A DNA stretch of 64,000 bases, taken from positions 62,001 to 126,000 of the forward strand of contig CACHDI010000003.1 of the NCBI GenBank assembly GCA_902578545.1, given 5' to 3'. Source of the stretch: an uncultured Alphaproteobacteria bacterium. Its GTDB lineage: Bacteria > Pseudomonadota > Alphaproteobacteria > Rhodobacterales > Rhodobacteraceae. Shown here one piece after another: positions 6,001 to 22,751 of this stretch. The stretch's first letter is position 1. Every line of letters starts with the position of its first letter. The position numbers were made by a program, and so were the translations under genes. The notes under the pieces were generated by a model. That model was not told the origin of the DNA. It worked only from the letters and a program-made list of their open reading frames with translations, and did no database searches.

Positions 6001-9000
6001 AGGCGACATTTCCAGATGAATCGCGTTCTACCGCACCATTTTCACTTGCTGCCTTAACATATACATTTTGCACAACTTCATATCGACTTATAGAACCGGT
6101 ATAAAAGGCAATGTCACCACTAAATTGCCCATGTTCTCCTCCAGAATGAGTTCCTCCCCATATCGTATCATCACCAGATCCCCCTTTTATGAGATCAATA
6201 GAGGCACCAGCAATAACTAAATCATCACCACCCTTACCAAAGATTTCATCAGATTGCTTTTTATTTGGGTTATTAGCATGACCAATTGTATCACTTACAA
6301 TAGTGCCTCGGAATGTTCCTTCAAAAGCCTGTTCTTGTGCAATTTTAAACTGGCTTTGGCTGGTAATAGTATTATTATTACCATCGACGACAACTAAGTG
6401 CTCAACATTATTTTGAACAACTCCTGCATCAATTTCTTTTTTAAATACAGCTGCGTATACCGTCTTTGTAACACCATTATCCGTTACTTGAACATCCGAA
6501 CCACCTTGGGTGTATTTATATAAATTCCATGCACTTTGGCCTCCTCCTTGATTACCATGGCCTCCTCCTTGATTACCATGGCCTCCTCCTTGATTGTAAG
6601 GGTTGATTGGTGGACCGTCCATCTGTTGAATAGAAGTCACTGCAATGACACTACCATTTACCGCTAAAGGATTTGCAAATCCTCCAGAAGGTTGCCAGCT
6701 TTCGTCTAATTCCATTGCAACATGACGAGAATAACCCCAACTATCAACAGCTAGTTGCTCCCATCCATCTTCAAAATTAACTTCTTCAACGTTGAGTAAA
6801 TAGTCCGTTCCCTCGCCACCAGCTAATTCTGGTAGAATATCCTTAATCTTAACTACTTTTGTATATTTAGATTTTGCAGCATTTGATAGGCTCTTATAAG
6901 CGGTAATAGAAACTTCCTGATAAGAACCATCACTTGCTAAATCGGGACGTCCAGCCTCCATTTTTAAATATACTTCAGAGATATTATATCTTGCTTTGGA
7001 CCCAGAATAAATTGCTCTATCGTAAGAATTAAAGCGATCCATTTCTAATTCCTGCATTTCCCATTCTGAGTACTGTTTCGCTTCATAACCTGTGGATCCA
7101 GGCTTAGCTTGCACTTCAAAATATAAAGGATTGGTCTGACTACCATCCCAAGCCCATTTCTTACCAGATCCATTACTATTTTCAGAATAAATGTCGTATT
7201 TCTTTTTTATCCCAGTATCCGGATTGGTAATTAATTGACCGGTTGCAAGTTTGTTTGTTAGCCCAGCTAAGAAATCACTTTCTGATCCACCATCAATAAA
7301 ATCATTTCCAAATCCACCTTCTATTTCGTCTCGACCCTGACCAGCTAAAATTATATCATTTCCACGACCACCCTGGATATAACTATCATGAATTCGACTA
7401 TTTGAATTTTGATTATTATTTGTATTATTGGAATGTGAATAACCTTGATTAGTCGACTCAACCCAATAATATTTAGAGTCTGAAGCACTCCATTCAACTT
7501 TTTGCTCTAATTGCCCATATTCATTATTGTAGGCATAATATTCACCTTGTGAATATTCATAAATATCCCATTTTCCATTGATTTCTTCAGCAGGAGCCGA
7601 ACCTTGGCCTTTGTACCATATAGCTGTAACTTCATTTGGAAAAACATTACCATCTAGATTAGCTTTTTGGTCATTAGGTCCTGGTTGCCAATTTGCAGTA
7701 TCAGGGCCTTTTTGATCGTCTTTAAATTTAAATTGATCGTCTGGTCTTTTATTGTTCCATGTTTTTCCATCAGCGTTTAACACCACCAAATCGACTACAT
7801 AACCAAACTGACCTTCAACTTTATAGGCCAAAAACTCACCAGTTTTAAATTCATAAATATCAAAAGTATCTTGAGTAGTAAAACCATCATCATAAGTAAT
7901 AGTTTCTCCTTGGGCCTTTGGCTGATCAGAACTTGAAGGCTGCCAGGCTTTCCAATCATCAGCCTGTGCAGCATTTAAAACTGAAATGTTAGTAGAATCA
8001 GTAACCCCTTCAAGTTTTATTTTCCAGCCAGCACTTTCTTCTTTTACCTCTTCCTTAACAGAATTTTCCACTGTATCGTAAGCAAGAAAGATATAACTGG
8101 GTGCCTCAGGTGTAGCAGTATTAACTTTGTAAATATCAAATTTACCATTGACTGGCTGACCACCTTGATAAGCACTAATAAGAGATGTTATTCCAGATCC
8201 GTTTGATACGGGGCTGTCGCCCTTTCCTGGAGACCAATTCCATATATCAAAACCGGCTACACCAGTAGCCATAGACATGTTGGCATCCATAGCATCCTGA
8301 AAACCAGAATCCCAAATATCCATACCATCATTAAAATCATTAAATCCACCAAATCCTGAATCTGATGACTTTTTACCAGCTCTTAGATCTATTACGTCAT
8401 CAAATCGAGTACCGTCCGCCATAACCTGACCATTACCGGTATGACCCATATAAGGGTCAACATTATATTTAACTTGGAAATTTACTTCACCATCAAAATC
8501 AAAGCCAAATTGAGCTTTTTCCATACCAAGGAGAATATCCGTACCTTCTCCTCCATACTTTTCAGGCAAACTATCAGAAACAAGATAAAAAGTATCTCCT
8601 TCTTTAATAGTAATGGCTGTTTTATCTTCACCATTACGCTTTACTAGCCCTAATGTATCCGTACCTTTCTTCTTTGATGTAATGGTAAAAACAGCATTTC
8701 CGTTGGTATCCTTAAGAACCATGGCCTTTCCTGTGAAGGTATGTTTCGTTAATGTAAAACGATCAATACTTGCATTATATTCTGCAATATCACTGTCTTC
8801 CCATTCAATACCAGTAGACCCATTGGCACCACCATCCAAAATATCATTACCGACACCACCGACTAATCGGTCACCACCAATGCCTGCAATCAAAACATCG
8901 TTTCCAGCTTCTCCGTCCATAAAATCATTGACTGGCGCTACTTCATTGTTGCTGGTGTTAATACCAGATGTATCTAAATCATTATGATTAATCACATCAT

Positions 9001-11542
9001 CACCAAAAGTACCTTTCCAATCGGCTGAACCTGCCCATCCGTTTTTCATACCTGGCATAACATTTTGGACAATCGATAGATTAAATGAAAAATCATTAAA
9101 TTGTATTTGCTCGACATTCACTAACAAATCTTTACCAAGGCCTTTAGAACCTGTGTTGGTATCTGAAACGACCGTATAACTTTTACTCTCTACCCACTTT
9201 GAAGAATCATTAACCAAATCACCAAAATTTTGTGAAATAATTGTGGCTAATTCTGAGCTATTTCCTGCATAAGTCTTTACAGTGAAACGAGCATAATCAC
9301 CTTGATAAACTGCTGTATCACCAGAGGGACCACCACCATGGCCATGACCCATATCTCCACCGGGCATAGCTGAGTTGCCACCAGGCATGGAGACATTAGT
9401 CCCTCCTCCACCCATGTCTTGATAATTACCACCCGTACCTCCAGCATCATTAAATCCACCACCCATAGAATCGTTAAAACCTGAACCACCACCCATGGGA
9501 TCATTCATTGGCATTCCAGACCCAACAGGTCCAACATCCATCATGTTCATAAATTCGTCAGGATTAAATGATCCTAGTGCATTAGGATCAGCATCAAGAT
9601 TAAAACCAATCCCCTTTAGATAATCTGTAGAATTAAAATCTTTTTTATTAGATCCACCATCAAAAAAATCATTTCCTTTTCCTAGAATAGCTCTATCAGA
9701 TCCAGCACCACCAGAAACGCGGTCATCACCATCGCCACTATCTATCTCTTCATCGACACCTTCACCTGTAATAGTATCAGCAAAGTCAGTACCCTCAATT
9801 CGACCTCCCCATACATCCTTAAAGAGAGATAATCGCATACCTTTATCATCAAAGAAAATTTCATCTATGTTTACTAAAATGTCAGTACCTAAACCACCAT
9901 TGGCATCACTGACACTATCCGTTACAACAAAATATTCTGTTGGTTTTTGAGACGTACCTGCAGACAAAGCACCAATGGCATTTGCATTCATGTTTAATGA
10001 TGAAATTAATGAATCTATGTATTCCTTATCTGTCTTATCTGTAATTGTATTCCCATCAGCATCTTTTCTAGAATATGAATTTGTATAAGTTAATTTTTCT
10101 ACTGTGAATCGTCTAGCTGCTGCCATATATTCAGCAATATTATCGTTCTCCCAAGGCATAACGCCTTGGCCCCTTGCCTGACCATCGATAAAGTCATTAC
10201 CAGCACCACCTTCAATGATATCTTTAGACCCACTAGTTAAAACACCATCGCCTTTTATAACGTCATTACCCGCTTTACCCTTGATAATTGATTTTCCTGT
10301 ACCACCTATAATAACATCATCAAATTCGGTACCTTTGGAAAATTCCTCTTGGATTGTTTTTCCTGTAGCAAAGTCCTGTGTTGAGAAACTCTCTGTCTCT
10401 GTAACCAGTAACTCTTCACTGTCTGCAAACTCTAAAATCTCAATATCCTCAAGAGTATCCGTACCATCTGTTCCAACGTTATCTGTAACGGTAAATGTCC
10501 CATCACTATTAGAAGTTATAGTGTAGTCCGCTTTCTTTCCTTTGAAGACAGCTCTATCACCCCACTCTTGAACCTTAAGTTGAATAGTATTACCATTTTC
10601 CGTTATTTGTTTTGCCCCGTCACTACCACCTTTGATAGTATCATCACCTTCACCACCTTGAAGACGATCAGCTCCACCACCCCCATCAAGTATGTCATTT
10701 CCAGCACCAGCATTTACAGCATCCCCTTTATCTGAGCCCTTTACTTTGTTAGCATCCGAATTACCAAAAGCGACTGCACCACCGCCACCAGGACCTGCTT
10801 CAAGTATTTCCTCTGTATCACCAGTGATATTTTTAAAAGTGTCACTTAAGGTAATATTCTGACCTTGGTCATTTTGAAATTGCATAAAATCACCAAGAGC
10901 TTCAAAAATACTGTACTCTCCAGAAGTATTATAATTGCCCTGTAATGCAGTGGCACCAGTTTCTACGGCTATAGTTTTTTGAACAAAAATTTCTACCCTT
11001 TCACCACTACTTGTTTTATTAATGAAAACATCTAGTGCTACTTTATTTGAACCCTGTTCAATAGAAGACTTAAACTCATCTACAGCATTTTTAAATTGGG
11101 AATTTGTTATAGAACCTTTTTCCCAACCCGTTCCAATTAAATTAACCTTAGTACTTGTACTTGCACCTGTATTGTTTCCACCGGAATAAGTTTTTGGCAA
11201 ATAAAATGCTGGATCAGAATTTGCAATAAATATAGCTGAAGCATCCCCCTCAGGTGCTTTATAGCCAACTTTCGAAACAATTTCTGTATCCAAAAATAAT
11301 TGTCCAGGCCTATTAGGATTTGTCTGCTCAAAAGCTAAAACCATTTTACCCTTGGCATCTAACATCTCTTGTGTACCTTCGGGCTCAACCATTCTAAGAT
11401 TATCCCACTGGTTACCAATGAATTGGATCGAATTGTTAGTTTTGTTTTGATCCTTAAAATTTGGATTTGGTGCATTTATATTGGTTACAACAAAAAAGTC
11501 TTTGTCACTGGGTTTAAAGAGGGGTCCCATTGGTTCTGACAT
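1..11542 (-). CDS. Giant RTX-type surface protein (partial, C-terminus beyond window)
   Basis: The frame opens at ATG 11542 after an AGGAG ribosome site (8-nt spacing) and stays open to base 1, so at least 3,847 residues are visible and the C-terminus lies outside the window. There is no Sec signal peptide; the N-terminus begins MSEPMGPLFKPSDKDFF. Calcium-binding RTX nonapeptides (for example GNDILDGGGGADRLQGG, about residues 277-304) recur throughout. About twelve times they alternate with a unit built as [S/N]DxAEYxxxxxRF, then a hydrophobic strand, then VxDxLxxxxGGxGTDxLxxIExIxFxD. A Gly/Met/Asn-rich linker lies at about 677-747 and a GHGNQGG tandem repeat near 1650. The C-terminal half holds seven inserted modules of two kinds that resemble phage structural-protein repeats. 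I infer a type I-secreted, calcium-dependent adhesin or S-layer-like giant protein, exported by the TolC/ABC/HlyD system at 17772-22751. Substrate pairing is inferred from proximity only. Confidence 0.85.
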   Translation of the reverse strand, partial: MSEPMGPLFKPSDKDFFVVTNINAPNPNFKDQNKTNNSIQFIGNQWDNLRMVEPEGTQEMLDAKGKMVLAFEQTNPNRPGQLFLDTEIVSKVGYKAPEGDASAIFIANSDPAFYLPKTYSGGNNTGASTSTKVNLIGTGWEKGSITNSQFKNAVDEFKSSIEQGSNKVALDVFINKTSSGERVEIFVQKTIAVETGATALQGNYNTSGEYSIFEALGDFMQFQNDQGQNITLSDTFKNITGDTEEILEAGPGGGGAVAFGNSDANKVKGSDKGDAVNAGAGNDILDGGGGADRLQGGEGDDTIKGGSDGAKQITENGNTIQLKVQEWGDRAVFKGKKADYTITSNSDGTFTVTDNVGTDGTDTLEDIEILEFADSEELLVTETESFSTQDFATGKTIQEEFSKGTEFDDVIIGGTGKSIIKGKAGNDVIKGDGVLTSGSKDIIEGGAGNDFIDGQARGQGVMPWENDNIAEYMAAARRFTVEKLTYTNSYSRKDADGNTITDKTDKEYIDSLISSLNMNANAIGALSAGTSQKPTEYFVVTDSVSDANGGLGTDILVNIDEIFFDDKGMRLSLFKDVWGGRIEGTDFADTITGEGVDEEIDSGDGDDRVSGGAGSDRAILGKGNDFFDGGSNKKDFNSTDYLKGIGFNLDADPNALGSFNPDEFMNMMDVGPVGSGMPMNDPMGGGSGFNDSMGGGFNDAGGTGGNYQDMGGGGTNVSMPGGNSAMPGGDMGHGHGGGPSGDTAVYQGDYARFTVKTYAGNSSELATIISQNFGDLVNDSSKWVESKSYTVVSDTNTGSKGLGKDLLVNVEQIQFNDFSFNLSIVQNVMPGMKNGWAGSADWKGTFGDDVINHNDLDTSGINTSNNEVAPVNDFMDGEAGNDVLIAGIGGDRLVGGVGNDILDGGANGSTGIEWEDSDIAEYNASIDRFTLTKHTFTGKAMVLKDTNGNAVFTITSKKKGTDTLGLVKRNGEDKTAITIKEGDTFYLVSDSLPEKYGGEGTDILLGMEKAQFGFDFDGEVNFQVKYNVDPYMGHTGNGQVMADGTRFDDVIDLRAGKKSSDSGFGGFNDFNDGMDIWDSGFQDAMDANMSMATGVAGFDIWNWSPGKGDSPVSNGSGITSLISAYQGGQPVNGKFDIYKVNTATPEAPSYIFLAYDTVENSVKEEVKEESAGWKIKLEGVTDSTNISVLNAAQADDWKAWQPSSSDQPKAQGETITYDDGFTTQDTFDIYEFKTGEFLAYKVEGQFGYVVDLVVLNADGKTWNNKRPDDQFKFKDDQKGPDTANWQPGPNDQKANLDGNVFPNEVTAIWYKGQGSAPAEEINGKWDIYEYSQGEYYAYNNEYGQLEQKVEWSASDSKYYWVESTNQGYSHSNNTNNNQNSNSRIHDSYIQGGRGNDIILAGQGRDEIEGGFGNDFIDGGSESDFLAGLTNKLATGQLITNPDTGIKKKYDIYSENSNGSGKKWAWDGSQTNPLYFEVQAKPGSTGYEAKQYSEWEMQELEMDRFNSYDRAIYSGSKARYNISEVYLKMEAGRPDLASDGSYQEVSITAYKSLSNAAKSKYTKVVKIKDILPELAGGEGTDYLLNVEEVNFEDGWEQLAVDSWGYSRHVAMELDESWQPSGGFANPLAVNGSVIAVTSIQQMDGPPINPYNQGGGHGNQGGGHGNQGGGQSAWNLYKYTQGGSDVQVTDNGVTKTVYAAVFKKEIDAGVVQNNVEHLVVVDGNNNTITSQSQFKIAQEQAFEGTFRGTIVSDTIGHANNPNKKQSDEIFGKGGDDLVIAGASIDLIKGGSGDDTIWGGTHSGGEHGQFSGDIAFYTGSISRYEVVQNVYVKAASENGAVERDSSGNVALYYTDAAAKEALAFSNGNDDGIGKEQTIGTNGQVSLNGGMVSSGSVAFNVAQAITINSSGNDSGGYFWIDGKGANGQALSAPVKLQGSNGGIATSTDKFKEITSITFKDGNGGSAAAKASAGKVTIGTSYKMALSDLTTNNKFYEAVVVVDSLAKDQGGEGTDVLVGVEGLVFNHSSSDNEGLERQNSQSSDLTKLAVTTASEDFLGYEWVDSVVDNISADGVNLAGGGAVTLSNTGRYLEITRTGSNLQNFTYEITGDIKEDPSPDAQTQNNVTKDFIVDHSGKKAGDYLWTKITNIAVKSGTKNGDIKIGTAGDSYLVQNYRTLYQGTNFDDVIKYDDESTFKSFVGTKFNLNQVTDMGFDGGQGDDIFYGAKSSFSKTPKINDSYAIYSGSVEEYTITPDTTGSTLNFVTVKHKVSDKAGGTGTDTLYDINKAIFGFQSHSEKVVNFLPETKDYKENDPTLQMEIVKGVKVVSTKYDDTVVAADYDKNAKQDIYFEALGSGSSGNEFTGRTDLPTDGADGVILPGFWMRYDIRYNPTNKKFKIVDSLEASLGGTGTTYAKTIDRIKFDERFDIEIGKTFDGTEDSGTADDNLTIYNGNYQYNFAQFSELSKADTGGYSALLSSGGAVANSLVNSNSQQVQNFQWVGGNKASFTISDSDNIAANKTVTVQKGSESAVTFTAKASGASGAQFNTDASASTTATNLAAAINAHSDFTASATGSVVTVAATGGVATTITTGDAARMAISGSLLNQGDLFTIGTVDNFAGKFVTFKSTGDESNTQFVIKGKALNGDAQTDTVTGKAATNVAVSSVAFKTIDSITVIGQQTAGNVNIGTQNSIFMPDSWTTADHDANSNSNSPDVQITPTILWGQSVTTDLKTSLDTIDSDDDDIIQKDEWVVAKGQGNNNPINSAFTYGGSWWNEEYGTYDSSGKFTALENQSTAPASSSLSLEIQFKGMGQSDKLYGSDFFNEKIVGRAGDDFMWGRGEQATDSDRASETGDSVIYYGDMNRYTISNLQTDVNTAGSNSTWDNTGISTSDWTAWLTANNLPSSTAPTYFTVTDSLTKEFGGDGVDTLIDIEKIEFADQTYFLTIRNFERPGYEGVMEKEFLGTSGRDDFSTYSDDSKTGAATVKIKNVAQLADKTVTVQKNAESAITFTAKASGASGDEFNIDSSSVSNTAANLAKAINAKASFTAWSDGDIVYITAGSGKVKANSNDVGKMETAKVKDIKFQFQGETGNDLIVGGVEFQGENVSNIVNIGDRAMYDGKQQNYKISSKELEFNLSGKSKITIQDSANIRADETITIQKNAESAITFTAKASGASGTQFNIHASASTTATNLATAINGHSDFTASATGNVVTIAVTGGGTVTVVSNDEHRLDPTKEVVAWGASDGGPINWDGSSGAPDTADLILAEALFNKFATVSNPRITQVTVEDTRPGSAGDGKDTLYGIEKLSFKEGVMDWKDVLLLPEIFRDHNGKIHFMKGTEFGDLFKGDDNNNDIESMGGDDDIVAGNGADRITPGTGADYIHGGLNNNSGDPNASWFRDEALFHDAPFARTEVSQIKVMVNADTGLMTHTSDDQFIIYNYNGKVAKSEDYSEDVSINTTVNAFNSSTITTTGADNDALTGSTGTNTTGNTNLALNGNGNLGSGKYISITSDGNEAGASISFLVTGKDYQGKDQTETIAGGAANATVKGTKIFSQVTEIKASGDTAGTVIAGTVSNFTWMDALLVTDTLPGTEKGSVGLNVLVDIEAIGFSDDFLDIKPFSDTWEFTDWFTGETIKESFQEGTPFDDTNLQGDNGTDTLSGNAGNDLLSGLAGGDRLIGGKGHDILKGGANGTSGDTWRDLDKAEYNGIEARYKVFTVKVNGSSLTPGSQSIYDVSGKIESDTDITTGGVINLDGYNVVKKTASSSDYASMTTTAYLVVDMLPSNMGGSGNDLLIDVEMVQFKESSIDLGLRIELNNWDNDVTNGYDWVEVKGTDGADDIRNWGTGSYLDTALD
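835..4060 (-). repeat. Phage-structural-like modules, C-terminal part of the giant protein
   Basis: Two kinds of protein repeat sit between RTX units. Type A (about 65-90 aa) has the core VQKxAESAITFTAKASGASG followed by NLAxAINxxxxFTA. It occurs at about 1880-2135, 2335-2620 and 3785-4060. Type B (about 90-100 aa) has the pattern ITSxGNxSGxxFxIxGKDxxGxxQTET, later a VxxITxxGxTAGxxxxG tail. It occurs at about 835-1110 and 3485-3775, with two more diverged copies at about 5050-5375 and 5615-5930. From memory both patterns are common in phage tail and neck proteins. That likeness is recognition by eye, not a search result. Confidence 0.6.
2052..2554. repeat. 29-bp exact direct repeat inside the giant gene
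   Basis: Bases 2052-2080 and 2526-2554 are identical over 29 bp. They encode the same part of two type A modules (the AESAITFTA core). A third module at about 3955-3985 is diverged at the DNA level. The two near copies suggest recent duplication or gene conversion and are a possible site for recombination. Confidence 0.85.
6540..6595. repeat. 21-bp tandem repeat (2.7 copies) in the giant gene
   Basis: Units at 6540-6560 and 6561-6581 are identical, with a 14-base partial third copy at 6582-6595. The unit is a multiple of three and encodes GHGNQGG on the minus strand, a flexible Gly/His/Asn linker. Copy-number change would lengthen or shorten the linker without breaking the frame. Confidence 0.9.
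9300..9510 (-). other. Gly/Met/Asn-rich low-complexity linker in the giant protein
   Basis: About 70 residues (roughly 677-747) are dominated by Gly, with Met, Asn, Asp, Ser and His, in degenerate units such as GGGFND and MPGGN. The segment separates RTX modules and carries a GHGHGG patch. It is probably disordered. The composition is quite different from the flanking beta-rich modules. Confidence 0.7.
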
Positions 11543-11778: not shown

Positions 11779-12069
11779 TCAATTAACAGTTTGGTCTTTA
11801 TCCCTATTTTTCACTGTATCTTTATTAGCTTTATTTTCCACTGTATCTTTACTTGCTGACTGTGATCTCTCTGCCAGTCTCTTAATCGTATTATTTAAGA
11901 TATTTGTAATTTTAAGTAAGTTCTGTCCTGTCATGGTTAAATGAAGTACTTCTTCTTCTTTATCATTTTCTACTTTAGATCCCTGCTGAACCCTGGTCAT
12001 AGATAAAGTTACGACTGGACCTTGTACAGAAATATTACCAATACCATCAATATAAAATTCTTTTGTCAT
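11779..12069 (-). CDS. 96-aa protein of unknown function between the two RTX-type genes
   Basis: The start at 12069 follows a strong GGGAGGGG ribosome site. The N-terminal half (FYIDGIGNISVQGPVVTLSM, then a pattern of short strands up to VLHLTMTGQNLL) looks like a small beta-sandwich followed by an amphipathic helix (LLKITNILNNTIKRLAERS). The last 30 residues are a charged tail with near-repeated KDTV units (SKDTVENKANKDTVKNRDKD). It has no signal peptide or membrane segment, so it is likely cytoplasmic. I do not recognise a named family, although short proteins starting FYxDGIxNISxxxxVV seem familiar from alphaproteobacterial surface-protein loci. A chaperone or regulator for the adjacent secreted proteins is a guess from position. 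Confidence 0.75.
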   Translation of the reverse strand: MTKEFYIDGIGNISVQGPVVTLSMTRVQQGSKVENDKEEEVLHLTMTGQNLLKITNILNNTIKRLAERSQSASKDTVENKANKDTVKNRDKDQTVN

Positions 12070-12198: not shown

Positions 12199-15105
12199 TT
12201 ACGCTATAACAACGTAATCGTTAGTATCCATGTTAGCCAAACTACTTACACCAGTTAATTCAACAATAGTAACTACTGAGTCTAAATCGTTTGTAGTAGC
12301 TTTTGTCGCTCCATTATTTGTTGCTACAGCAATGTATGAATTGGTTCCATCAGTGTAAGCAACTAAAAAGGAATCGTCATCTTCTAAGGCGGTTTGGTAA
12401 GCTATTGTATCTGATCCTGCAGTTGCCATTCCAGCAAGCGCTGCTGCATCATTAGCATAAGTTTGAGATAACACAACCAAATCAGCTCCATTGATTGTAC
12501 CACCATCTGTTGTAACTTTAGCAACTACAGCTGCACCAGCTCCAACTGAAGCAGTATTTGTATCGACTAAATCATTAGTGGTGGTCAGACCTTCAAGCAT
12601 TGCAACACTTAACTTAAGAACGTCTGCAGCAGTAGTAGCTGTGCCAAGATCAAAATCTGTGATTTTAGCAACTGCAGCAGTTGTTGCAACTGTATTAGCG
12701 GATTGAAAAATATCATTTCCAGCACCACCAGTCATAGTATCAGCTTTTGCAGTTTCCATTGTAAAAGTTATAGTATCTGCTCCAGCACCACCATTTATAG
12801 TATCGGTTCCAGTTCCAGCCACAATAGTATCATCACCAGCATCACCGTTGAGAGTGTCATCGCCAGCACCACCAGTAATGGCATCAGCACCACCTCCACC
12901 AGAAATAGTATCACCATTTGCACTGGCATCGATAGTATCTTTGTTGGCTGAACCAGTGATAGTAAAAGCTTGAGTGCTTACAAACTTAGCTGGATCAAAT
13001 GCCGTTACATTAATCTCTGTTTCACCAGCTGTTGCTCCTCCGCTGAAAGATAAACCTGAAAGGTCAATAGTAGAAACGTCAACCAACGTAGCTGTACCAG
13101 CTCCATCAATATCCATAACATCAGCAGCGGCATCAGCTGTAATAATGTAGTTTTTACCACTAAGCTGAGACGCTTTAAAAGTAACCTTACCATTTGCAGC
13201 TGAAATGTCGACAACTTCGATATTTGATAATGTTAAGTTAGCATTAGCACTTGCATTTGCGATTGTAATTTTGTCATTTCCAGCACCGCCATCAACCTTC
13301 TGACCTGCAGCAGGAGCGGCAATACTAGTAATTGTATCATCACCAGATCCTAGTACGATGTCTTTGTTACCAGCGCCTAGAGTAATACCTATGGCTCCGG
13401 TTGCACCAGATGCGTCCATCTTTTTGGCAGTAAAAGTTCCAGCAATAGTTGCAGTCTTTGAACCTGTAATATTAACAGTAGTTGCCGTACCACCTCTAAT
13501 ATCTAGAGCTGATTGATTTGCAGTCATATTGAAATTTAAGGTAGCAATATTATCAGAACTAGCAGTTGCATCAATTGTCAAAACACCAGTTTGATCCTGC
13601 CCAGCATTAATGGTTAATGAACCATTAGCATTGTGGGTCGAAAGACCATCGGAAACGTCTAAACCAAAAGCGTTAGCTTGAGCTACTGTAGAATAAGTTA
13701 AAGTAGACCCATCCTTGAATACAGGAACATTTGTACCTGTGGTAGCAGCTTGCAATTCAATAACATCTACATCAATTTTTGAATAATCAGCAGTAGCAGC
13801 AGCAGTTGAAAATTGTACAGTAGATACAGCTGAACCTGTTGTTGAATCTGTAATACCAGTTGTATGGTTCAGAGCTTGTGCACTTGTTGTTTTGTAAGTT
13901 ACACTCTGACTACCAGACATTGTCACACTAAGTGGTTGAGCTCCGGCATCTAAATTATATGTAGCCGCCGCTCCATTACCGCTCAAGGTTAATATTTCAA
14001 CAGGCTGAGCAGCGTCAGAGTCAAAAGTAATGATACCAGCAGCAGTTACACTAGCAGTATCGGTGGCTGAACCAGTACCATCTAAATTAATAGTAGTAGC
14101 CGATGCCGCAGTACCAGTCTTAGCAACAGTTACGCTTGCCGCGGTTGCTATGTTATTAACTGCAACAGTCTGTGCTACTGTGCCCGTGTAGGCGGTTGTT
14201 ACGGAAGAAGTTGAAGCAGAATTTAAATCTACAGTAACAGCACCAGAACCAGTACCACTATTTACACTTACATTCTTACTAGTTGCACCCATTGCAACTG
14301 TCATAGCTCCACCAGTTCCACCATTTATGGTTAGTCCGTCAACACTAGCATCAGTAACAACATAAAGGGCAGAAGCACCAGCATTTAACGTCACATTAGT
14401 TGCGGAAGCAGCAACATGCATAGCTGATTCTGTACCACCAAAAGGACCTGTACTTGGGTTAGTTGCATCAATAGTTGTGGTATCAATGTTAGTTCCCAGA
14501 GTAACCGTCATGTTAGGGCCGATGTTTATAATCTCTGCTGCATTAGGAGCAACAAGAGCATTACCAGTATGATTAACAGTAACATTTGCACCAATGATAT
14601 TACCAAGATTAATATTAGTTTCATTAGCAGTTACATTACTTCCGTAATTATAGTTGATGTTTTCAATACCGGTAACAGTAGCAGGGGCTGTGGCCATCGC
14701 ATTGCCAGCCATTGTAATATTTAAAGTATCAGAGTCAGTTGAAGATGCATCAACTAAAACATCACCAGCACCAAATGTGGTATCAGTAGCACTTATGGTA
14801 TCATTTTCTGTTGTAAATGTTGAAGTAATTACGTCAGCAGTAGTAGCTAAGTCTTTTGACAGGGCTGTAACTGTTGGCGTAGCAGGTGTTGTTGTTGTAG
14901 TAGTAGTAGTAGTTGTGTCATCAGAACTACTGTTACAAGCTGCAAGGGATACCGCTAAAAATCCTAATCCGCCAAAGCGAGCAGCATTCTTTGCCTGTTT
15001 GCTTTCCCATGCCGCTACTATTTTAGCAAGAGCTTTCTTCTTAACCTCTGTGCGGTCGACTGCCTCGTACCCGACGAGATCAGATTTGTTTACGATCATA
15101 TTCAT
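12199..15105 (-). CDS. S-layer-like RTX protein with lipobox (beta-strand repeat protein)
   Basis: A roughly 968-residue Thr/Ala/Gly-rich, beta-strand-repeat protein. I choose ATG 15105 because GGAG lies 9 nt upstream; ATG 15114 is only one base from that site, and 15099 is also possible. The N-terminus has a long charged segment (GYEAVDRTEVKKKALAKI), then a hydrophobic stretch ending in the lipobox LAAC (Cys at about residue 57), a Ser/Asp linker and a run of ten Thr. The body (100-720) is repetitive strands rich in NVTVN, ATTVN and TINLDG patterns. A compact block of RTX nonapeptides (GGAGDDTLNGDAGDDTI and relatives) lies at about 725-785, followed by an acidic C-terminal domain. The RTX block and C-terminus suggest type I export, whereas the lipobox suggests Sec export and lipidation, so the route is unresolved. 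SapC downstream supports an S-layer-like role. GC content is visibly higher than in its neighbours, as expected of a Thr/Ala/Gly-rich protein. Confidence 0.85.
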   Translation of the reverse strand: MNMIVNKSDLVGYEAVDRTEVKKKALAKIVAAWESKQAKNAARFGGLGFLAVSLAACNSSSDDTTTTTTTTTTPATPTVTALSKDLATTADVITSTFTTENDTISATDTTFGAGDVLVDASSTDSDTLNITMAGNAMATAPATVTGIENINYNYGSNVTANETNINLGNIIGANVTVNHTGNALVAPNAAEIINIGPNMTVTLGTNIDTTTIDATNPSTGPFGGTESAMHVAASATNVTLNAGASALYVVTDASVDGLTINGGTGGAMTVAMGATSKNVSVNSGTGSGAVTVDLNSASTSSVTTAYTGTVAQTVAVNNIATAASVTVAKTGTAASATTINLDGTGSATDTASVTAAGIITFDSDAAQPVEILTLSGNGAAATYNLDAGAQPLSVTMSGSQSVTYKTTSAQALNHTTGITDSTTGSAVSTVQFSTAAATADYSKIDVDVIELQAATTGTNVPVFKDGSTLTYSTVAQANAFGLDVSDGLSTHNANGSLTINAGQDQTGVLTIDATASSDNIATLNFNMTANQSALDIRGGTATTVNITGSKTATIAGTFTAKKMDASGATGAIGITLGAGNKDIVLGSGDDTITSIAAPAAGQKVDGGAGNDKITIANASANANLTLSNIEVVDISAANGKVTFKASQLSGKNYIITADAAADVMDIDGAGTATLVDVSTIDLSGLSFSGGATAGETEINVTAFDPAKFVSTQAFTITGSANKDTIDASANGDTISGGGGADAITGGAGDDTLNGDAGDDTIVAGTGTDTINGGAGADTITFTMETAKADTMTGGAGNDIFQSANTVATTAAVAKITDFDLGTATTAADVLKLSVAMLEGLTTTNDLVDTNTASVGAGAAVVAKVTTDGGTINGADLVVLSQTYANDAAALAGMATAGSDTIAYQTALEDDDSFLVAYTDGTNSYIAVATNNGATKATTNDLDSVVTIVELTGVSSLANMDTNDYVVIA
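14887..14916 (-). repeat. Trinucleotide tract encoding ten threonines
   Basis: Ten consecutive Thr codons (ACA/ACT; plus strand tgt and agt triplets) follow the lipobox and SSSDD linker of the S-layer-like protein. The tract is a plausible site for slippage in units of three, changing linker length without frameshift, and Thr-rich linkers are typical O-glycosylation targets. Confidence 0.9.
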
Positions 15106-15114
15106 TTTCACCAT

Positions 15115-15434: not shown

Positions 15435-16274
15435 ATGAAAGTCATACCCATATCAAAAGAAAATCATAGTGATTGGTCTTATGTTGGACTTAGTAGTTAT
15501 CAGCATACAAAAAATGATGCCATTGTCCCTATATTAATGGCCGAAATAGATAGAATTATATCAACTAATCCTATTATCTTTATACAAAATGATGAGAAAT
15601 TAGGACTTTATAGTTTGCAAGGCTTATTACCAAACATGAATTTAATGATTAATAATCAAGGGAGATGGACCCAAAATTATATTCCTGCACGATATAGGTC
15701 CTTACCATTTGTGTTAGCAACTGACTCAAATAGTAAAAATACGGAAGAAAAAGTATTATGCTTTATAGAAGACCTTAATTGTGTTGCAAAATCAATCAAT
15801 AGGAAAAGTACAAAAATTTTTAATTCAAATGAAGATTTGTCAGAAGATATGAATCGTGTTTTTGAGTTTCTAAAAAGTATAGAACAAAATGAATTAGTTA
15901 CACAAAAAGCATTATTATCAATCAAAGAGGCTGATATTATAGAGGACTGGTCATTATCAATCAAGTTATCAGATGGTGAAAGAACCATGAAGGGTTTGAA
16001 AAAGATAAATATTAAAAAACTAAAATCATTATCGGGTAAGATACTTGAAAAGTTAAATATCACTGGTGGATTAGACATCTGTTTTGCAAATATTTTATCT
16101 TTAAACAACATTGAAAATTTAAAACAATTACTCATTTCAAGAACTCAATCCATTCAAAAAAAGAAGGAAACAAACGAAAACAAATCCTTGAGGGATCTTA
16201 CGCTTGAAAAACAAAGTAAAGAGAAAAAGGAAGAAATGGATAACTTGGTTAAGAATTTATTATTAGAAGATTAA
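15435..16274 (+). CDS. SapC family protein
   Basis: 279 residues. Residues 28-100 carry the SapC pattern: VPILMAEI, then PIIFIQNDEKLGLYSLQGL, then NNQGRWTQNYIPARYRSLPFVLA. SapC was named from the Campylobacter fetus S-layer locus, and relatives are common in alpha- and gammaproteobacteria next to large surface proteins; its biochemical role is not established. There is no signal peptide, so it is probably cytoplasmic. The C-terminal 40 residues are a Lys/Glu-rich helix (KKKETNENKSLRDLTLEKQ). It is transcribed divergently from the S-layer-like RTX gene, which fits a shared surface-layer function. The ribosome site is poor (AATAATA before ATG). Identification of the family is by motif recognition. 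Confidence 0.8.
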   Translation: MKVIPISKENHSDWSYVGLSSYQHTKNDAIVPILMAEIDRIISTNPIIFIQNDEKLGLYSLQGLLPNMNLMINNQGRWTQNYIPARYRSLPFVLATDSNSKNTEEKVLCFIEDLNCVAKSINRKSTKIFNSNEDLSEDMNRVFEFLKSIEQNELVTQKALLSIKEADIIEDWSLSIKLSDGERTMKGLKKINIKKLKSLSGKILEKLNITGGLDICFANILSLNNIENLKQLLISRTQSIQKKKETNENKSLRDLTLEKQSKEKKEEMDNLVKNLLLED

Positions 16275-16331: not shown

Positions 16332-16562
16332 ATGGCAAAAATAAAATTAGATGACGTCGAGTATGATACAGATGATATGTCTGACAATGCAAAAGCGCAA
16401 TTAGCTTCACTTCAATTTAATGAAGCCCACATAAATAGGCTTAAAAACGAACTGGCTATTGCTGATACTGCAAAGATTGCTTATGTCAATGCCCTTAAAA
16501 GGGAACTTGAGTCGGCTGATAATACAAAACCTTCCAGCAGCAAGTCAAAAGCTAAAAAATAA
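16332..16562 (+). CDS. Small conserved protein, DUF6447-like
   Basis: 76 residues with a very strong ribosome site (AGGAGG, 5-nt spacing to ATG). The sequence MAKIKLDDVEYDTDDMSDNA, then QLASLQFxxxxIxxLKxELAxxxTAKxAYxxALKREL, is a short N-terminal strand motif followed by one long amphipathic helix, then a Lys/Ser-rich tail. I match it from memory to the DUF6447 group of small marine-bacterial proteins; function unknown. It lies 57 bases after sapC on the same strand and may be co-transcribed, and ends 15 bases from the convergent AsmA-like gene. It is likely cytoplasmic, and the helix suggests oligomerisation. Confidence 0.75.
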   Translation: MAKIKLDDVEYDTDDMSDNAKAQLASLQFNEAHINRLKNELAIADTAKIAYVNALKRELESADNTKPSSSKSKAKK

Positions 16563-16577
16563 TTAAATCATTTATTT

Positions 16578-17762
16578 CTAAATTATTGGTTTTCCATTTA
16601 GTAATATTTTGTTACCGATAACCTTAATTTTAGCATTATGGTCATAATTATTTGAAATGTCAGGTGAACTTAATAAGGCTCCAAGAAGCACTCCTCCTAA
16701 AATAGGATCAAGAAGCCCTGAAACCATGGTTTTTGAAATTACTTCGGCAGTATTTTTTGTCCGTATTGAGCTATCAATCATTTGCTGACATCCCGCATTA
16801 GGTGTTACACAAAAACCGTCTGCTGAAAATTCAAATGTTCCCTGATTGTTTGCATCTTTAAACTTAAGATCAATTCCTACCACATCAACTAATTTTCCAC
16901 ATTCTTTTCTGTTAGATAATATATCATATAATTCACAGTTAATTGAGGCATTTTTCCAAATTCCTATAGCTTTTATATCTAACCTGGAACCAATTTCTCC
17001 AGAAATAGCTTGAATGTTTTCAGCTTTAAATTCAATTGGCATTTGCCAAACTTTCCTCTCAGCTAAATCTAAATTCAATAAAACTTTTTCACCGATTAAA
17101 ATTCTATTAGGATTACCTCTACCGATATTACTTAAATCTAGTTTTAAATTTTTAGCCTCTATTTTTGTCTTGAGCTCCTTACCAAAATCACCTGTTAGAT
17201 TAAAATTGTTTAATTTTACTTCAACTAAACCATTTGGTGATAAAAATTTTACATCTATTTCTTCAGCTACTGCAGTGATTTTTTTTTGTTCAGTAATTAT
17301 CCCATTGATAAGAAAATTTATGTTGTTAAATACTGATTTTTCTTTTTCTTTAAGCTCTTTTAACTTTCCTGATATTGAAAAGTCTTTATTTCTATAACTA
17401 CTTACTAATATTTTACCATTTAAATTAGTAACTAAAAATTCAGCATTTTTACTTCTTATTATCCCACTACTAATTTTAAAATTTACTGGTTTAGAGATGC
17501 TTATATTAGGCTCTAAAATAATATCCTTTAAATTTATCTGAAAATTTTCATTATTATTTCTAAAAACCAAGTCTTTATATGAAATCCCCAAATTAGGGGT
17601 AGATATCATTTCACCTATTTGAAGCTCAGAACCACTTGGTAAAGAAGAACTAATATATTCTTTCAACCAACCTGGCAATAATATTCTTGCACCACTGTAA
17701 AGAGGAACGCATATAATTAGTAATGTAATGGAAAGATAAATAAATATTCTAAATATTTTCAT
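16578..17762 (-). CDS. AsmA-like membrane-anchored protein, fourth gene of the secretion operon
   Basis: About 394 residues. An N-terminal hydrophobic segment (about residues 7-27) anchors it in the inner membrane, followed by a periplasmic region made almost entirely of short alternating strands (FKAENIQAISGEIGSRLDIKA, KAKNLKLDLSNIGRGNP and similar). Two cysteines near CVTPNAGC and a small hydrophobic stretch (GLLDPILGGVLLGALLSS) lie near the C-terminus. The pattern resembles the AsmA/TamB-type beta-groove proteins or DUF2125-type periplasmic proteins, but I cannot assign a family. A GTG lies directly before the chosen ATG at 17762. Only 9 bases separate it from hlyD, so it is very probably the last gene of the type I secretion operon. 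A role in export or in moving lipid or substrate across the periplasm is inference. Confidence 0.7.
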   Translation of the reverse strand: MKIFRIFIYLSITLLIICVPLYSGARILLPGWLKEYISSSLPSGSELQIGEMISTPNLGISYKDLVFRNNNENFQINLKDIILEPNISISKPVNFKISSGIIRSKNAEFLVTNLNGKILVSSYRNKDFSISGKLKELKEKEKSVFNNINFLINGIITEQKKITAVAEEIDVKFLSPNGLVEVKLNNFNLTGDFGKELKTKIEAKNLKLDLSNIGRGNPNRILIGEKVLLNLDLAERKVWQMPIEFKAENIQAISGEIGSRLDIKAIGIWKNASINCELYDILSNRKECGKLVDVVGIDLKFKDANNQGTFEFSADGFCVTPNAGCQQMIDSSIRTKNTAEVISKTMVSGLLDPILGGVLLGALLSSPDISNNYDHNAKIKVIGNKILLNGKPII

Positions 17763-17771
17763 CACTTAAAC

Positions 17772-19076
17772 TTAATCTGTAAAAGCACGTTCTTTAACTT
17801 TTGCCATAGGCTGCCATAAATAATCAAAAATGGTTCTTTTTCCTGCCAAAACATCAATCGATGCAACCATACCAGGTAGTATTTCAATTGCAGAACCATC
17901 ATCTTCATAAAGAGTTGTATCAATAGAAACATCAACTAAATAATAACTCATTCCTGTAGACTTATCTTCAACTGCATCAGCAGACACCTTTAATACCTCA
18001 CCATCAATAGTACCATATCTTGAAGCATCATAAGCTGTTAAACTTATTCGAACTTCCTGTTTTGGTTGAATATATGCAATATCTTTGGGATCAATTTTTC
18101 CTTCAACTATTAAGTCATCGCCTGTTGGAACTATCTCTAAAACAATATCCCCAGGCTTAACAAAACCTCCAATAGTTTCAAAATTAAGCCTATTAATTAC
18201 TCCATCTACGGTTGATTTTAGCTGAGTTCTTTTTACTCTATCTTCTAGAGCTGGAATTCTTGATTCTACTTCTGCAATTTGAGAAATTATATCTGAAAGT
18301 TCAGTTTGGCTTTTTGTAGTGTAAGCCTGTCTAGCAGAAGCTATTTGATCCTCAACTTCTAAAATTGAGGTTTTAAATCTAAACTTTGAAGCAATTGAGC
18401 TTTCTATTTTTCCTTCAAAATCTTTTGCTTGTCTTTGTAAATTAAGTAATTCTGTTTCTGGATATTGTTGCAATTTCACCAGAGGTTCTATTATGGAAAT
18501 TTGTTTCTCTACAAATCTCAGAGTGTCTCTTGTAGTCTCAATCGTTACATCAACTTCATTTAATTGTTGTTCTCTCTGCGTTAATTGCTGCTTTAGTACT
18601 GAGAGTTGTGCATTAAGATCTGCTTTTCTAGCAGAATACAAAGCCCTTTCAACAGTAACAACAGTAGGCGCCATTTCTTGAAGATCTTTTTCAAAATTAG
18701 GTTCGTCACCTAATACTTCTGCTGATAGTCTCGACTCTTGTATTTTTAAACTTGCTAACCTTTGAAGAGCTTGGTCGTAAGATGTTTTAGCGTCTATGGG
18801 ATCAATTTCGAATAATATATCGTCCTTATTTACTTTTTCACCCGTTTCCACAAACCTAGCCTTGATCACACCTCCTTCGGAAGTTTGGATCAATTGATTT
18901 TGTAAAGAAGATACTATTTTTCCTTGACCTCTCGTTACATTATCAAGTTCTGTGACATTTGCCCAAAAAAGTAGTATTGCAACTAAAGCAATAATTATAA
19001 ATAACAAAAAAGATCCAAAGAAGCCGGAAGACCCTGACAATTCTTTTGATAATTTATTAAAATCAGTTGCTGGCAT
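17772..19076 (-). CDS. HlyD family type I secretion membrane-fusion protein
   Basis: 434 residues with the order expected of a type I adaptor. It has a short cytoplasmic N-terminus, one transmembrane helix (about 20-40), a first lipoyl half-motif (TSEGGVIKARFVETGEKVNK), a long coiled coil rich in Gln/Glu (about 97-280), and the second lipoyl half (STVDGVINRLNFETIGGFVKPGD). A beta-barrel domain (GKIDPKDIAYIQPKQEVRISL) follows, ending WQPMAKVKERAFTD as is usual in this family. It links the ABC exporter at 19086 (9-bp gap, upstream in the same operon) to the TolC-type channel at 21321. It bridges the inner and outer membranes during export of unfolded RTX substrates. Confidence 0.95.
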   Translation of the reverse strand: MPATDFNKLSKELSGSSGFFGSFLLFIIIALVAILLFWANVTELDNVTRGQGKIVSSLQNQLIQTSEGGVIKARFVETGEKVNKDDILFEIDPIDAKTSYDQALQRLASLKIQESRLSAEVLGDEPNFEKDLQEMAPTVVTVERALYSARKADLNAQLSVLKQQLTQREQQLNEVDVTIETTRDTLRFVEKQISIIEPLVKLQQYPETELLNLQRQAKDFEGKIESSIASKFRFKTSILEVEDQIASARQAYTTKSQTELSDIISQIAEVESRIPALEDRVKRTQLKSTVDGVINRLNFETIGGFVKPGDIVLEIVPTGDDLIVEGKIDPKDIAYIQPKQEVRISLTAYDASRYGTIDGEVLKVSADAVEDKSTGMSYYLVDVSIDTTLYEDDGSAIEILPGMVASIDVLAGKRTIFDYLWQPMAKVKERAFTD

Positions 19077-19085
19077 CTTTTTTCT

Positions 19086-21287
19086 CTATTTGTTATTTGC
19101 TTGCATAAGTTTTTCTGGAGTATCATCAGCAACTAATAATCCCCGATCTATGACCATAACTCTTGAAGCTAATTTGACTAAAGTATTTCTGTGCGTGATT
19201 GCAATTAGGGTTTTATCCTCCATCCAAGAAGAAAGATTATCTAAAACTATTTTTTCAGTAGCAGTATCCATTGAGCTAGTTGGCTCATCTAGTATAAGTA
19301 AAGAGGGTTTATGTAAAATAGATCTAGCCAAATTTATTGATTGTCTTTGACCCCCTGAAAGTCCCTCACCTCTTTCTTTTAATTGAAAATCATATCCAGA
19401 TGGATTCTGTCTCACAAATTCATCTACTCCAGATATTTTTGCAACTTCTAAAATATGTTCATCATCATATTGTACAAAACCCATTTGAATATTTTCTTTT
19501 ACTGAACCAGAAAATAACCATGTTTCTTGTAGCATAAAACCAACATTTCTTCTTAAGTCTGCAGAATCTATTTGCCTTATATCAACACCATCAATCAAAA
19601 TAGAACCTGTATCAGGCTCATAAAGTCCAGAAAGAAGTCTTGCTATTGTCGACTTTCCAGATCCCATTTTTCCCAAAATAGCTACTTTCTCTCCTGGTTT
19701 AATTTTAAAACTTAAATCCCTTAGTGTCGGTTCATTAGCACCCGGATAAGTAAATGAAACATTTTTGAACTCCACCTCACCTTTTAAATTTGGTCGACTC
19801 AAAGGATTTTCATTATTCCCACCATCTTTACGCTTAGACATAAGCTCATTTATTGATTTATAAGCTGTACGAGCTGAATTTACTCTAGTAAGAGCATTAG
19901 CTAGTTGCGATAAAGGTGCTAGGGTTCTACCACATAAAATTACTACAGCTATTAAAGCACCCATAGTAACAATACCGTCTTGTATTAAAAATACTCCATA
20001 AAAGATAATACCAATTTGTGCAAATTGCTGTACTGAAGCAGCAGAATTAATTGCAAATTGAGAAATCATTCTACTCCTGAAACCTAAATCAGACTGTGAA
20101 TTACTAGCTTCCTCAAATCTTTTTCGCATCAATCCGGCAGAACCCGTAGCTTTAATAGTTTCAAGGCCATTTAGAGTTTCAACCAAGACACCTTGTTTAG
20201 ACATTCCACTTTTCATTCCTTGAACGCTTAAATTAGCTAAAAAAGGCTGAACAAGAATACCCGTTAACATTACAATAGGAACACAAATCAGTGGAATGAT
20301 TGATAATGGTCCTCCGATTAGAGAGATAATATAGATAAAAAGAAATATAAAAGGTAAATCAACTACTGCAACTAAAGTAGCTGATGTAAAAAAATCTCTA
20401 AGACTCTCAAATTCCCTGACTGTGCTAGCTAAGGCACCTGATTTGTCATTTTTAGTTGCTAAATTCATGGTCATTAACTGATTAAATATTAATCGAGACA
20501 TTCTTGCATCAGCCCTTTTTCCAGCTCTATCTATAAAATTTGCCCGTAGCATTTTAATTAAGAAATCAAAGCCCAAAGCGATAAGAACACCGATAGTAAG
20601 GGCGATTAATGACTCTATAGCTTGATTTGGAACGACTCTGTCATAAACAACCATAATGAATAAGGAGGAAGACAAACCCAGAAAATTAGACACGGCAGCG
20701 GCTAAAATGACTTGAGCATAAGTCCATTTACTCTGTGTTAGAGAACCCCAAAACCAATTTACTTTTTTATTTTTTGTAGAATCTCTTAATTGTCGTCTAT
20801 TTTTAATTAATAAGATGCCACCATTATAAATTTTTCTAAAATCTTTTTCGCTATATTTTGTAAATTTATCATTTGTATTTTCATCGTATAAAATATAACC
20901 CTTATTTGCATCAACACTTGTAAGTACGGCTGTTTTACCTCCTTTAAGTTCAATAATTGCAGGGCAATGCCCTTGAGATATTTTTCTTGGTTTAAGTTGA
21001 CCAACATTTGCAGAAAACTCAAGATTTTCAAGTGCTGAAACTGCATCTGAATAGCCAAATTCTCCATCTGTAACATCGGCCATATCCCTTATTGAAGATA
21101 TACTTCTCTCTAACCCATTAATCCTAAGAATAATTTGCAAGCTTTCTAATAAAGAGGCTTCTGCACTAGCATTGTCAGATAAATCAATCGCTTCTTTTTG
21201 TACTGGCTTTATTTTAGCTAACTTAGCAGACGTTTTATTTATAGTTTTCGACTTCTTTTCAGTCTCTTTAAGGGTTTCTGAATTCAT
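19086..21287 (-). CDS. Type I secretion ABC exporter (HlyB/LapB type)
   Basis: 733 residues. Residues about 50-165 form a peptidase C39-like domain (GHCPAIIELKGGKTAVLTSVD, then YILYDENTNDKFTKYSEKDF). The N-terminal Gln/Cys catalytic motif of true C39 proteases is missing, so it is a substrate-docking domain rather than a protease. About 185-480 are six transmembrane helices (FLGLSSSLFIMVVYDRVVPN is the typical start). The nucleotide-binding domain follows: Walker A GKMGSGKST, signature LSGGQ, Walker B SLLILDEPTSSMD, switch ITHR. It works as a homodimer with HlyD and TolC to export C-terminally signalled RTX proteins. The two RTX genes to the left are the obvious substrates, although this is not proven by sequence. 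The first 40 residues are an extra Lys/Ser-rich extension. Confidence 0.95.
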   Translation of the reverse strand: MNSETLKETEKKSKTINKTSAKLAKIKPVQKEAIDLSDNASAEASLLESLQIILRINGLERSISSIRDMADVTDGEFGYSDAVSALENLEFSANVGQLKPRKISQGHCPAIIELKGGKTAVLTSVDANKGYILYDENTNDKFTKYSEKDFRKIYNGGILLIKNRRQLRDSTKNKKVNWFWGSLTQSKWTYAQVILAAAVSNFLGLSSSLFIMVVYDRVVPNQAIESLIALTIGVLIALGFDFLIKMLRANFIDRAGKRADARMSRLIFNQLMTMNLATKNDKSGALASTVREFESLRDFFTSATLVAVVDLPFIFLFIYIISLIGGPLSIIPLICVPIVMLTGILVQPFLANLSVQGMKSGMSKQGVLVETLNGLETIKATGSAGLMRKRFEEASNSQSDLGFRSRMISQFAINSAASVQQFAQIGIIFYGVFLIQDGIVTMGALIAVVILCGRTLAPLSQLANALTRVNSARTAYKSINELMSKRKDGGNNENPLSRPNLKGEVEFKNVSFTYPGANEPTLRDLSFKIKPGEKVAILGKMGSGKSTIARLLSGLYEPDTGSILIDGVDIRQIDSADLRRNVGFMLQETWLFSGSVKENIQMGFVQYDDEHILEVAKISGVDEFVRQNPSGYDFQLKERGEGLSGGQRQSINLARSILHKPSLLILDEPTSSMDTATEKIVLDNLSSWMEDKTLIAITHRNTLVKLASRVMVIDRGLLVADDTPEKLMQANNK

Positions 21288-21320: not shown

Positions 21321-22751
21321 TTAAAACGTCTTCCAACCAATTTCTTTAGTTAAACCATGTGTTAAAGCTCTAACTCTATAACTAGCCAATGTAAATTCAG
21401 CTAAAGCATTTACTAATAAAATACGGTTCTCAGCTAATGTAACTTCAGCATTTAGAACATCTTGTATTTTACTTCGCCCAGATTGTAATTGAGCAGATAA
21501 CTCTTCTTTGTTTTTTTGAGATAATTCAACCATATCAAAAATCACTTCATAAGATTTTTTAGATCCATAATAACTTTCTAGAGCAACATCTAATTGTGAA
21601 ATCAATTGTTTCTCTATAGATTGTCTTTGCCTTTTTGCTTCTTTGATTTGTTCTTTTAAAGTTGCAATCTGATTTTCCAATCTTCCACCATCGTTAAATA
21701 CATAATTAACTAAAATACCAATGTTGGCTGTACTATCTTCTGCAGTATCCCTAGCAGGTGCTGTTAATCCAGCATTCATAGCAACATTTGGTCTTTGTTG
21801 TGCCTTTAATGCTTTATACTCTGCTTCTAATCCTTGAATTAAAAAATCTTGTGCTTTAATTAGTGGTGATTCTTTTAACATCTTAGATTTTGCACTTGCC
21901 TTGCCAATTATGGTTCTTGCTTGCAAGGAATCTACTGATAAGACATCTCCCCCAGGAAACATTTCATTAAAAAGAGCTACCGCAGAATGATAATCTGTCT
22001 GAGATCGTGAATTGGCAATTTTTAACTTGGCGTAGTCTTGTTGGGCTTTAATAAACATCGAGGTATCGCCTAAACCAGATACAGAAATATTTTCAATCTG
22101 TCCTAAAAAGGGTTCTGCCTGTTCTAAACCTTTCTTATAAATAGCAACAACTTCCTTTTGCCTATTAAGATTTACCCAGACTTCATATGATCTTATCGCC
22201 ACGGTCTCTGCTGAAATTTTTGATTGAATTCTAGAGACCTGGTACCTTTTTTTCTGCGACAAAATGCTGTTGTCTAAAGATCCATAATCAAACAATACTC
22301 TTGATATATTTAAACTTCCTACTGCGCCAAAGGAGTTTTTAGAGTTATCACGACTAACACCACTCAATGCTTGTACATTAACTTGGGTATCCTTGCCAGA
22401 TTTTAGAGTTTCAATTGTTAACTTTGCAGCTCTTGTGTTAGCTTGCGATGATAAAACTGACGGATGTGATTTAACAGCTTGTAAAACATTATAAAAAGCA
22501 TTTTTTTGATTAAAAGCTTTAAAGTTTGGGTCGGACCTACCAACTAAGATGCTTTCATTTTCGATTGGGGTAGGTTTAAAATTTTCAAAAAAACTAAAAA
22601 GGGGATTAGATGATGTTTTATCAAATTCCTTTTCTTCCTTTGTAGAAATATTTTTTGGATTTTTATTAAATAAATTTAAAAAGTTTTGATTAGAAGATTG
22701 GCAACCTACTAAAATCAGTAATATAAAAGTAAAAAATATCTTATAAACCAT
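21321..22751 (-). CDS. TolC family outer-membrane channel lipoprotein
   Basis: 476 residues with a lipoprotein signal (hydrophobic segment ending LVGC, Cys17), then Ser/Asn-rich sequence. Two TolC-type outer-membrane efflux repeats follow, with long helices and the strands SFGAVGSLNISRVLFDYG and TANIGILVNYVFNDGGRLENQI. It is the first gene of the secretion operon, with the ABC gene 33 bp downstream. TolC proteins of type I systems are usually not lipidated, so the lipobox resembles the OprM/NodT branch. It provides the outer-membrane exit duct. The ribosome site is weak. Confidence 0.9.
   Translation of the reverse strand: MVYKIFFTFILLILVGCQSSNQNFLNLFNKNPKNISTKEEKEFDKTSSNPLFSFFENFKPTPIENESILVGRSDPNFKAFNQKNAFYNVLQAVKSHPSVLSSQANTRAAKLTIETLKSGKDTQVNVQALSGVSRDNSKNSFGAVGSLNISRVLFDYGSLDNSILSQKKRYQVSRIQSKISAETVAIRSYEVWVNLNRQKEVVAIYKKGLEQAEPFLGQIENISVSGLGDTSMFIKAQQDYAKLKIANSRSQTDYHSAVALFNEMFPGGDVLSVDSLQARTIIGKASAKSKMLKESPLIKAQDFLIQGLEAEYKALKAQQRPNVAMNAGLTAPARDTAEDSTANIGILVNYVFNDGGRLENQIATLKEQIKEAKRQRQSIEKQLISQLDVALESYYGSKKSYEVIFDMVELSQKNKEELSAQLQSGRSKIQDVLNAEVTLAENRILLVNALAEFTLASYRVRALTHGLTKEIGWKTF

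Follow-up and report, generated by a model that had tools for sequence, protein, structure and literature searches.

Type I secretion is described in textbooks as a three-component export, in which the substrate passes straight from the cytoplasm to the outside. In the window, i.e., the whole stretch of 64,000 nucleotides of alphaproteobacterial DNA analyzed here (GC content of 32%; source assembly of 1.96 Mb), a type I operon includes a fourth gene, which raises the question of what this gene contributes to secretion. The initial annotation had described its product as AsmA-like and had suggested that it could be a new export accessory, for example a periplasmic guide or a lipid conduit needed for a substrate beyond 400 kDa. 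We report here that the fourth protein is a component of the type I operon with a predicted AsmA-like fold, and we propose that it helps lipid-anchored exported proteins to reach the cell surface.

Organization of the type I secretion locus

The operon is located on the minus strand and its genes are arranged in the order tolC-hlyB-hlyD-fourth gene. The first gene (21321..22751) encodes a tolC-like outer-membrane factor (OEP/TolC; PF02321), which was found to carry a lipobox of its own (LVGCQSS). The hlyB gene (19086..21287) encodes an LssB-type permease/ATPase with a C39-like N-terminal domain (PF03412), which matched TIGR03375 with a score of 806.5 bits (cut-off of 693.1), and hlyD (17772..19076) encodes a periplasmic adaptor (PF13437), which matched TIGR01843 with a score of 338.9 bits (cut-off of 208.65) and was the only protein in the source genome to exceed this cut-off. 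Together with the PF02321 protein and the PF00353 RTX proteins of the locus, these matches correspond to a type I secretion system of the LssB class. The fourth gene, also on the minus strand, extends over 16578..17765 when read from a GTG codon (395 aa), or over 16578..17762 when read from the ATG at the next codon (394 aa). As initially annotated, 9 bp separate the end of hlyD, at position 17772, from this ATG.

Two RTX genes were found on the same strand. One encodes a protein of 971 aa (12199..15114; PF00353), and the other, which starts at position 11542 and continues past the edge of the window (2..11542), encodes a giant RTX protein, whose reading frame reached a total of about 5480 aa when extended beyond the window; the locus thus does encode a giant substrate, as had been assumed. 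A gene of 96 aa located between the two RTX genes (11779..12069, minus strand) is kept in two relatives and showed no convincing family match. On the opposite strand to the operon, two conserved neighbors were recognized by synteny: a SapC family gene (15435..16274, plus strand; PF07277) and a gene of 76 aa (16332..16562, plus strand) with a weak, below cut-off likeness to DUF6447. Tandem copies of this small DUF6447-like gene were observed downstream of hlyD in two other loci (L086 and L087).

Distribution and conservation of the fourth gene

The fourth gene was carried by nine genomes, eight of which belong to one Rhodobacterales genus and one to a second genus (G315); the gene is thus known from 2 of the 294 genera sampled in the family. 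The closest named relatives were marine single-cell genomes and MAGs, labeled Rhodobacteraceae, Paracoccaceae or uncultured Alphaproteobacteria. Apart from the source genome, 11 genomes represented the genus, and a homologue was present in 7 of them. Three of the genomes of the genus without the fourth gene were also devoid of this hlyD, and in the remaining one the contig ended inside hlyD. In all nine carriers, the gene was located directly 3' of hlyD, with a gap of 6 to 18 bp. The initial annotation had held that homologues found consistently away from hlyD would refute an accessory role; no such copy was detected among 295 genomes of the family and 385 genomes of the class. A single-sequence scan of the genome contigs with the window protein revealed no relative. 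One additional match (G633) came from the profile search of the class; its sequence looked like that of an MgtE-type transporter, and it was rejected as a relative.

The reading frame was intact in six other full-length loci, in which the protein exhibited 27-45% identity to the window copy, versus 62-89% for HlyD, and a Ka/Ks ratio of about 0.17 was obtained for the closest pair of fourth genes. The protein therefore diverges fast, yet is under purifying selection. The fourth gene is a real gene and a stable fourth member of the type I operon, in agreement with the export accessory that had been proposed. Three genomes of the genus also possess a second, unrelated HlyD, next to which no such gene was found. 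This second HlyD (L117, L118, and L119), with a length of 647-669 aa, is encoded after an ABC ATPase and appears from its sequence to be fused to a cyclic-nucleotide-binding (cNMP) domain.

Predicted structure of the fourth-gene protein

The window protein matched none of the Pfam-A and NCBIfam models, including the AsmA-family HMMs, and a sequence search of the PDB also gave no match. When seven members of the family were scanned against Pfam, only a weak RodZ_C match was obtained, in one of them. We considered the predicted structure, using an AlphaFold2 model built on an alignment of eight sequences (mean pLDDT of 77; pTM of 0.68). This model was characterized, from the N- to the C-terminus, by a helix (residues 2-40), about 18 strands, two short helices (residues 339-349 and 354-366) and a terminal hairpin. 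LPD-3, a bridge-like lipid-transfer protein, was the sole Foldseek match at E ≤ 0.001 (E = 1.2e-4, prob 1.00) and was aligned by VIA-align with a Z of 7.2 and an rmsd of 4.7 Å over 228 residues. The top VIA-align ranks by Z were mostly occupied by porins; however, their rmsd was mostly 7-9 Å versus 4.7 Å for LPD-3, and we therefore attributed the porin likeness to a common beta meander. Hydrophobic alternation along the strands was not clearly above that of shuffled controls (p = 0.15 and 0.09).

The model supports a single helix in the inner membrane that leads into an extended periplasmic groove of antiparallel beta strands, of the AsmA-like or 'beta-taco' type; this agrees with the membrane-anchored, beta-rich periplasmic protein and the elongated beta groove that had been anticipated. 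As for the term 'AsmA-like', it is valid at the level of the predicted fold only, since no AsmA-family HMM was matched. The idea of a lipid conduit gains from the groove of the model and from its likeness to LPD-3; it is a better guess than a guide for giant proteins.

The protein shares a membrane-anchored periplasmic beta groove with the phospholipid transporters AsmA, TamB, YhdP, and YdbH, but is shorter and is bound to one secretion operon. A profile comparison of the fourth-gene family with E. coli AsmA revealed no significant homology.

Lipobox of the neighboring RTX proteins

The 971 aa RTX protein possesses a conserved, extended N-terminus (residues 1-70), which is covered by no Pfam model and contains a lipobox, AWESKQAKNAARFGGLGFLAVSLAAC-NSSSDD, with the cysteine at position 60. 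Across 11 loci, the motifs MN, WE, and LAAC were invariant in this region. An RTX protein with the conserved lipobox was present in all seven assessable loci beside the fourth gene, and in these seven loci G, S, N, or D occupied five to six of the seven positions after the lipobox cysteine, although G/S/N/D-rich residues at this place also serve more generally as a signal of the Lol-avoidance type. In two relatives (G006 and G011), a second, longer RTX gene also encodes a lipobox (SACGGGGSGD and TACGGGGGNTS); in these long second proteins, encoded at 10242-20000 of L014 and 15852-19994 of L012, GGGGSGD or GGGGGNTS comes after the lipobox. No lipobox was found at the N-terminus of the window's own giant RTX protein.

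Among the 295 genomes of the family, the lipobox N-terminus and this hlyD clade occurred together in seven of the nine genomes with the hlyD clade, and outside the query genera in four of six (p ~ 2e-6). The lipobox gene and hlyD were on different contigs in G323 and G035. The RTX lipobox is thus a feature that tracks the operon and is a better clue than substrate size. More widely, the lipobox N-terminus (AWESK...GLLAVSLAAC) was seen repeatedly in Rhodobacterales, either near one HlyBD clade or alongside it.

Genes in the same slot of other loci

Further loci were gathered across genomes by means of hlyD relatives; in plasmids, the search retrieved only relatives with 32-39% identity. In Tateyamaria pelophila (L051) and in one other locus (L052), a gene of a different AsmA-like family, DUF2125 (PF09898), was located directly after hlyD. 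The slot gene of Tateyamaria adjoins an RTX-type protein of 1019 aa. T. pelophila has also kept the usual DUF2125 copy beside tyrA, so the copy in the type I slot is an extra one. L052 (PXDX01000083.1) is labeled 'candidate division WWE3', and its genes (HlyB, HlyD, DUF2125, and lipobox RTX) are Rhodobacterales-like; this contig was probably mis-binned.

In the HlyD tree, the loci with the fourth gene formed one group (support 90/73), with the two DUF2125 loci placed elsewhere, which suggests either two separate recruitments or an old gene that was replaced or lost. Other loci of the same hlyD clade showed no AsmA-like gene after hlyD (Yoonia SKA53 L047, L042, L083, L085, L086, and L087). Lipobox RTX proteins were nevertheless present in L047, L042, and L086, and L087 contained a partial lipobox gene; such systems therefore do not in general need the fourth gene, unless its role is taken by a groove protein acting in trans.

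Comparison with DUF2125 and GspN

DUF2125 was previously linked by HHsearch to the N-terminus of DUF2993 and, through the latter, to Chorein-N (PMC6791001). In a comparison of overall layout, the predicted DUF2125 structure agrees with the fourth-gene model: a helix comes first, then about 14-18 strands, then a pair of short helices and a final hairpin. This likeness would fit an ancestry in which the fourth gene is a highly diverged DUF2125, recruited from the tyrA-locus copy and sharing the function of that family. Moreover, the C-terminal cap aligned with DUF2125 with a score reached by only 4 of 200 column-shuffled controls, but this signal is weak because the block was chosen by eye after the resemblance had been seen. 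Usual DUF2125 genes, however, are found beside tyrA and not beside hlyD, the fourth gene has no PF09898 match, and hhalign gave the comparison of the two families a non-significant probability of about 2%. A separate DUF2125-like gene was in addition present beside tyrA in four of the eight genomes of the genus, as well as in G315. We consider a DUF2125 origin possible but doubtful; it is compatible with a GspN-like role, so the two are not mutually exclusive. At the usual DUF2125 place beside tyrA, the DUF2125-like gene observed in the source genus (L063-L066) was shortened and diverged.

GspN is an AsmA-like inner-membrane beta-taco protein of type II secretion. It is needed solely by substrates in which the lipobox precedes a motif rich in G/S (GGG) or in N/D (ND(N/D)), and its groove has been proposed to shield or extract acyl chains (PMC12802150). 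The fourth-gene protein resembles GspN/PulN (T2SSN, PF01203) in its predicted beta-taco, its single inner-membrane helix, and the location of its gene within a secretion system. The proposed partner substrates are also alike, in that the lipobox of the type II substrates (PMC12802150), like that of the RTX neighbors here, is followed by G/S- or N/D-rich residues. The two differ in that GspN, of about 250 aa, belongs to type II operons, whereas the fourth gene, encoding about 395 aa, was part of a type I operon at every locus. The T2SSN profile gave no hmmscan match to the fourth-gene family and an hhalign probability of 4%. Judged by sequence, the fourth-gene protein is a member of neither GspN nor DUF2125.

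Discussion

We propose that the fourth-gene protein is a dedicated fourth component of an LssB-type type I system, in which an inner-membrane-anchored periplasmic beta groove would act like that of GspN, in that it shields, or passes on, the acyl chains carried by lipidated RTX substrates. This proposal of a GspN counterpart is based on the fact that the locus shares both features, namely an AsmA-like protein fixed in the operon and lipoboxes in the RTX proteins. The putative substrates would be the 971 aa lipobox RTX protein and, in some relatives, also the long second RTX protein. These would be lipidated on the lipobox cysteine and exported by this type I system; with the help of the groove, the lipid-anchored N-terminus would leave the inner membrane, and the protein would become anchored at the cell surface. 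By analogy with GspN, we give such an accessory for lipid-anchored RTX proteins a chance that falls only a little short of even. Type I substrates exit with their C-terminus first. A difficulty for the proposal is consequently that an N-terminal lipobox could encounter Lgt and LspA only when export ends, unless it is inserted first.

According to a different reading, the protein would carry out an AsmA-type transfer of phospholipids, which would supply lipid to the outer membrane, or relieve stress on it, at sites of heavy export and leave the substrate untouched. AsmA-like proteins of known role (YhdP, TamB, and YdbH) do move phospholipids, and the predicted fold resembles LPD-3. This reading nevertheless appears unlikely to us, as the gene is strictly linked, one to one, with a single secretion system and is absent without it, and as the rapid divergence of the protein relative to HlyD suits substrate-specific change better than housekeeping.

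A further reading is that the protein guides or braces very large substrates in the periplasm; the initial annotation had suggested a guide, for a substrate beyond 400 kDa. The RTX protein of about 5480 aa encoded at the locus would fit such a role. However, RTX adhesins of comparable or larger size, such as LapA, are established to be exported elsewhere by ordinary three-component systems devoid of such a part, the slot gene of Tateyamaria adjoins a protein of only 1019 aa, and no trend with size was seen; we regard this role as quite improbable and the need for a giant substrate as unsupported. Least probable of all is that the gene is a neutral passenger that one lineage happened to retain in the operon, as its restriction to two genera might suggest, given its intact frames and purifying selection across HlyD divergence down to 62% identity and the second AsmA-like family in the same slot elsewhere.

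Among the known systems, the LapA-type RTX adhesin systems with an N-terminal retention module resemble the present locus in their LssB-type transporter, C39-like domain, and surface-anchored RTX proteins. In these systems, anchoring relies on a plug domain in the TolC-like pore (LapE) and not on a lipobox. To our knowledge, LapA-type systems include no AsmA-like gene. In the Aat system (AatPABCD), known from enteroaggregative E. coli, outer-membrane and adaptor parts of a type I-like kind are likewise accompanied by additional subunits, dedicated to a surface protein that is acylated (PMC7943197). The additional subunits of Aat, however, are an acyltransferase and Lol-like parts, with no beta-groove protein, and the Aat substrate is acylated on a glycine and crosses by Sec (PMC7943197).

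No paper in the literature searched connected AsmA-like proteins to type I secretion. It is conceivable, although we would not yet expect it, that a type I system with an AsmA-like subunit built in for lipid handling, exporting RTX lipoproteins to the surface, has arisen at least twice, through different AsmA-like families recruited beside hlyD. If the fourth protein has the proposed role, the delivery of lipid-anchored proteins to the surface would be among the tasks of some type I systems, and type I and type II systems would share beta-groove proteins as a means of moving lipoproteins. For the anchoring of giant adhesins, the locus also offers a candidate mechanism distinct from the plug of LapA. 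The small-genome ocean bacteria that carry the fourth gene would then possess a component not previously described for the type I machine.
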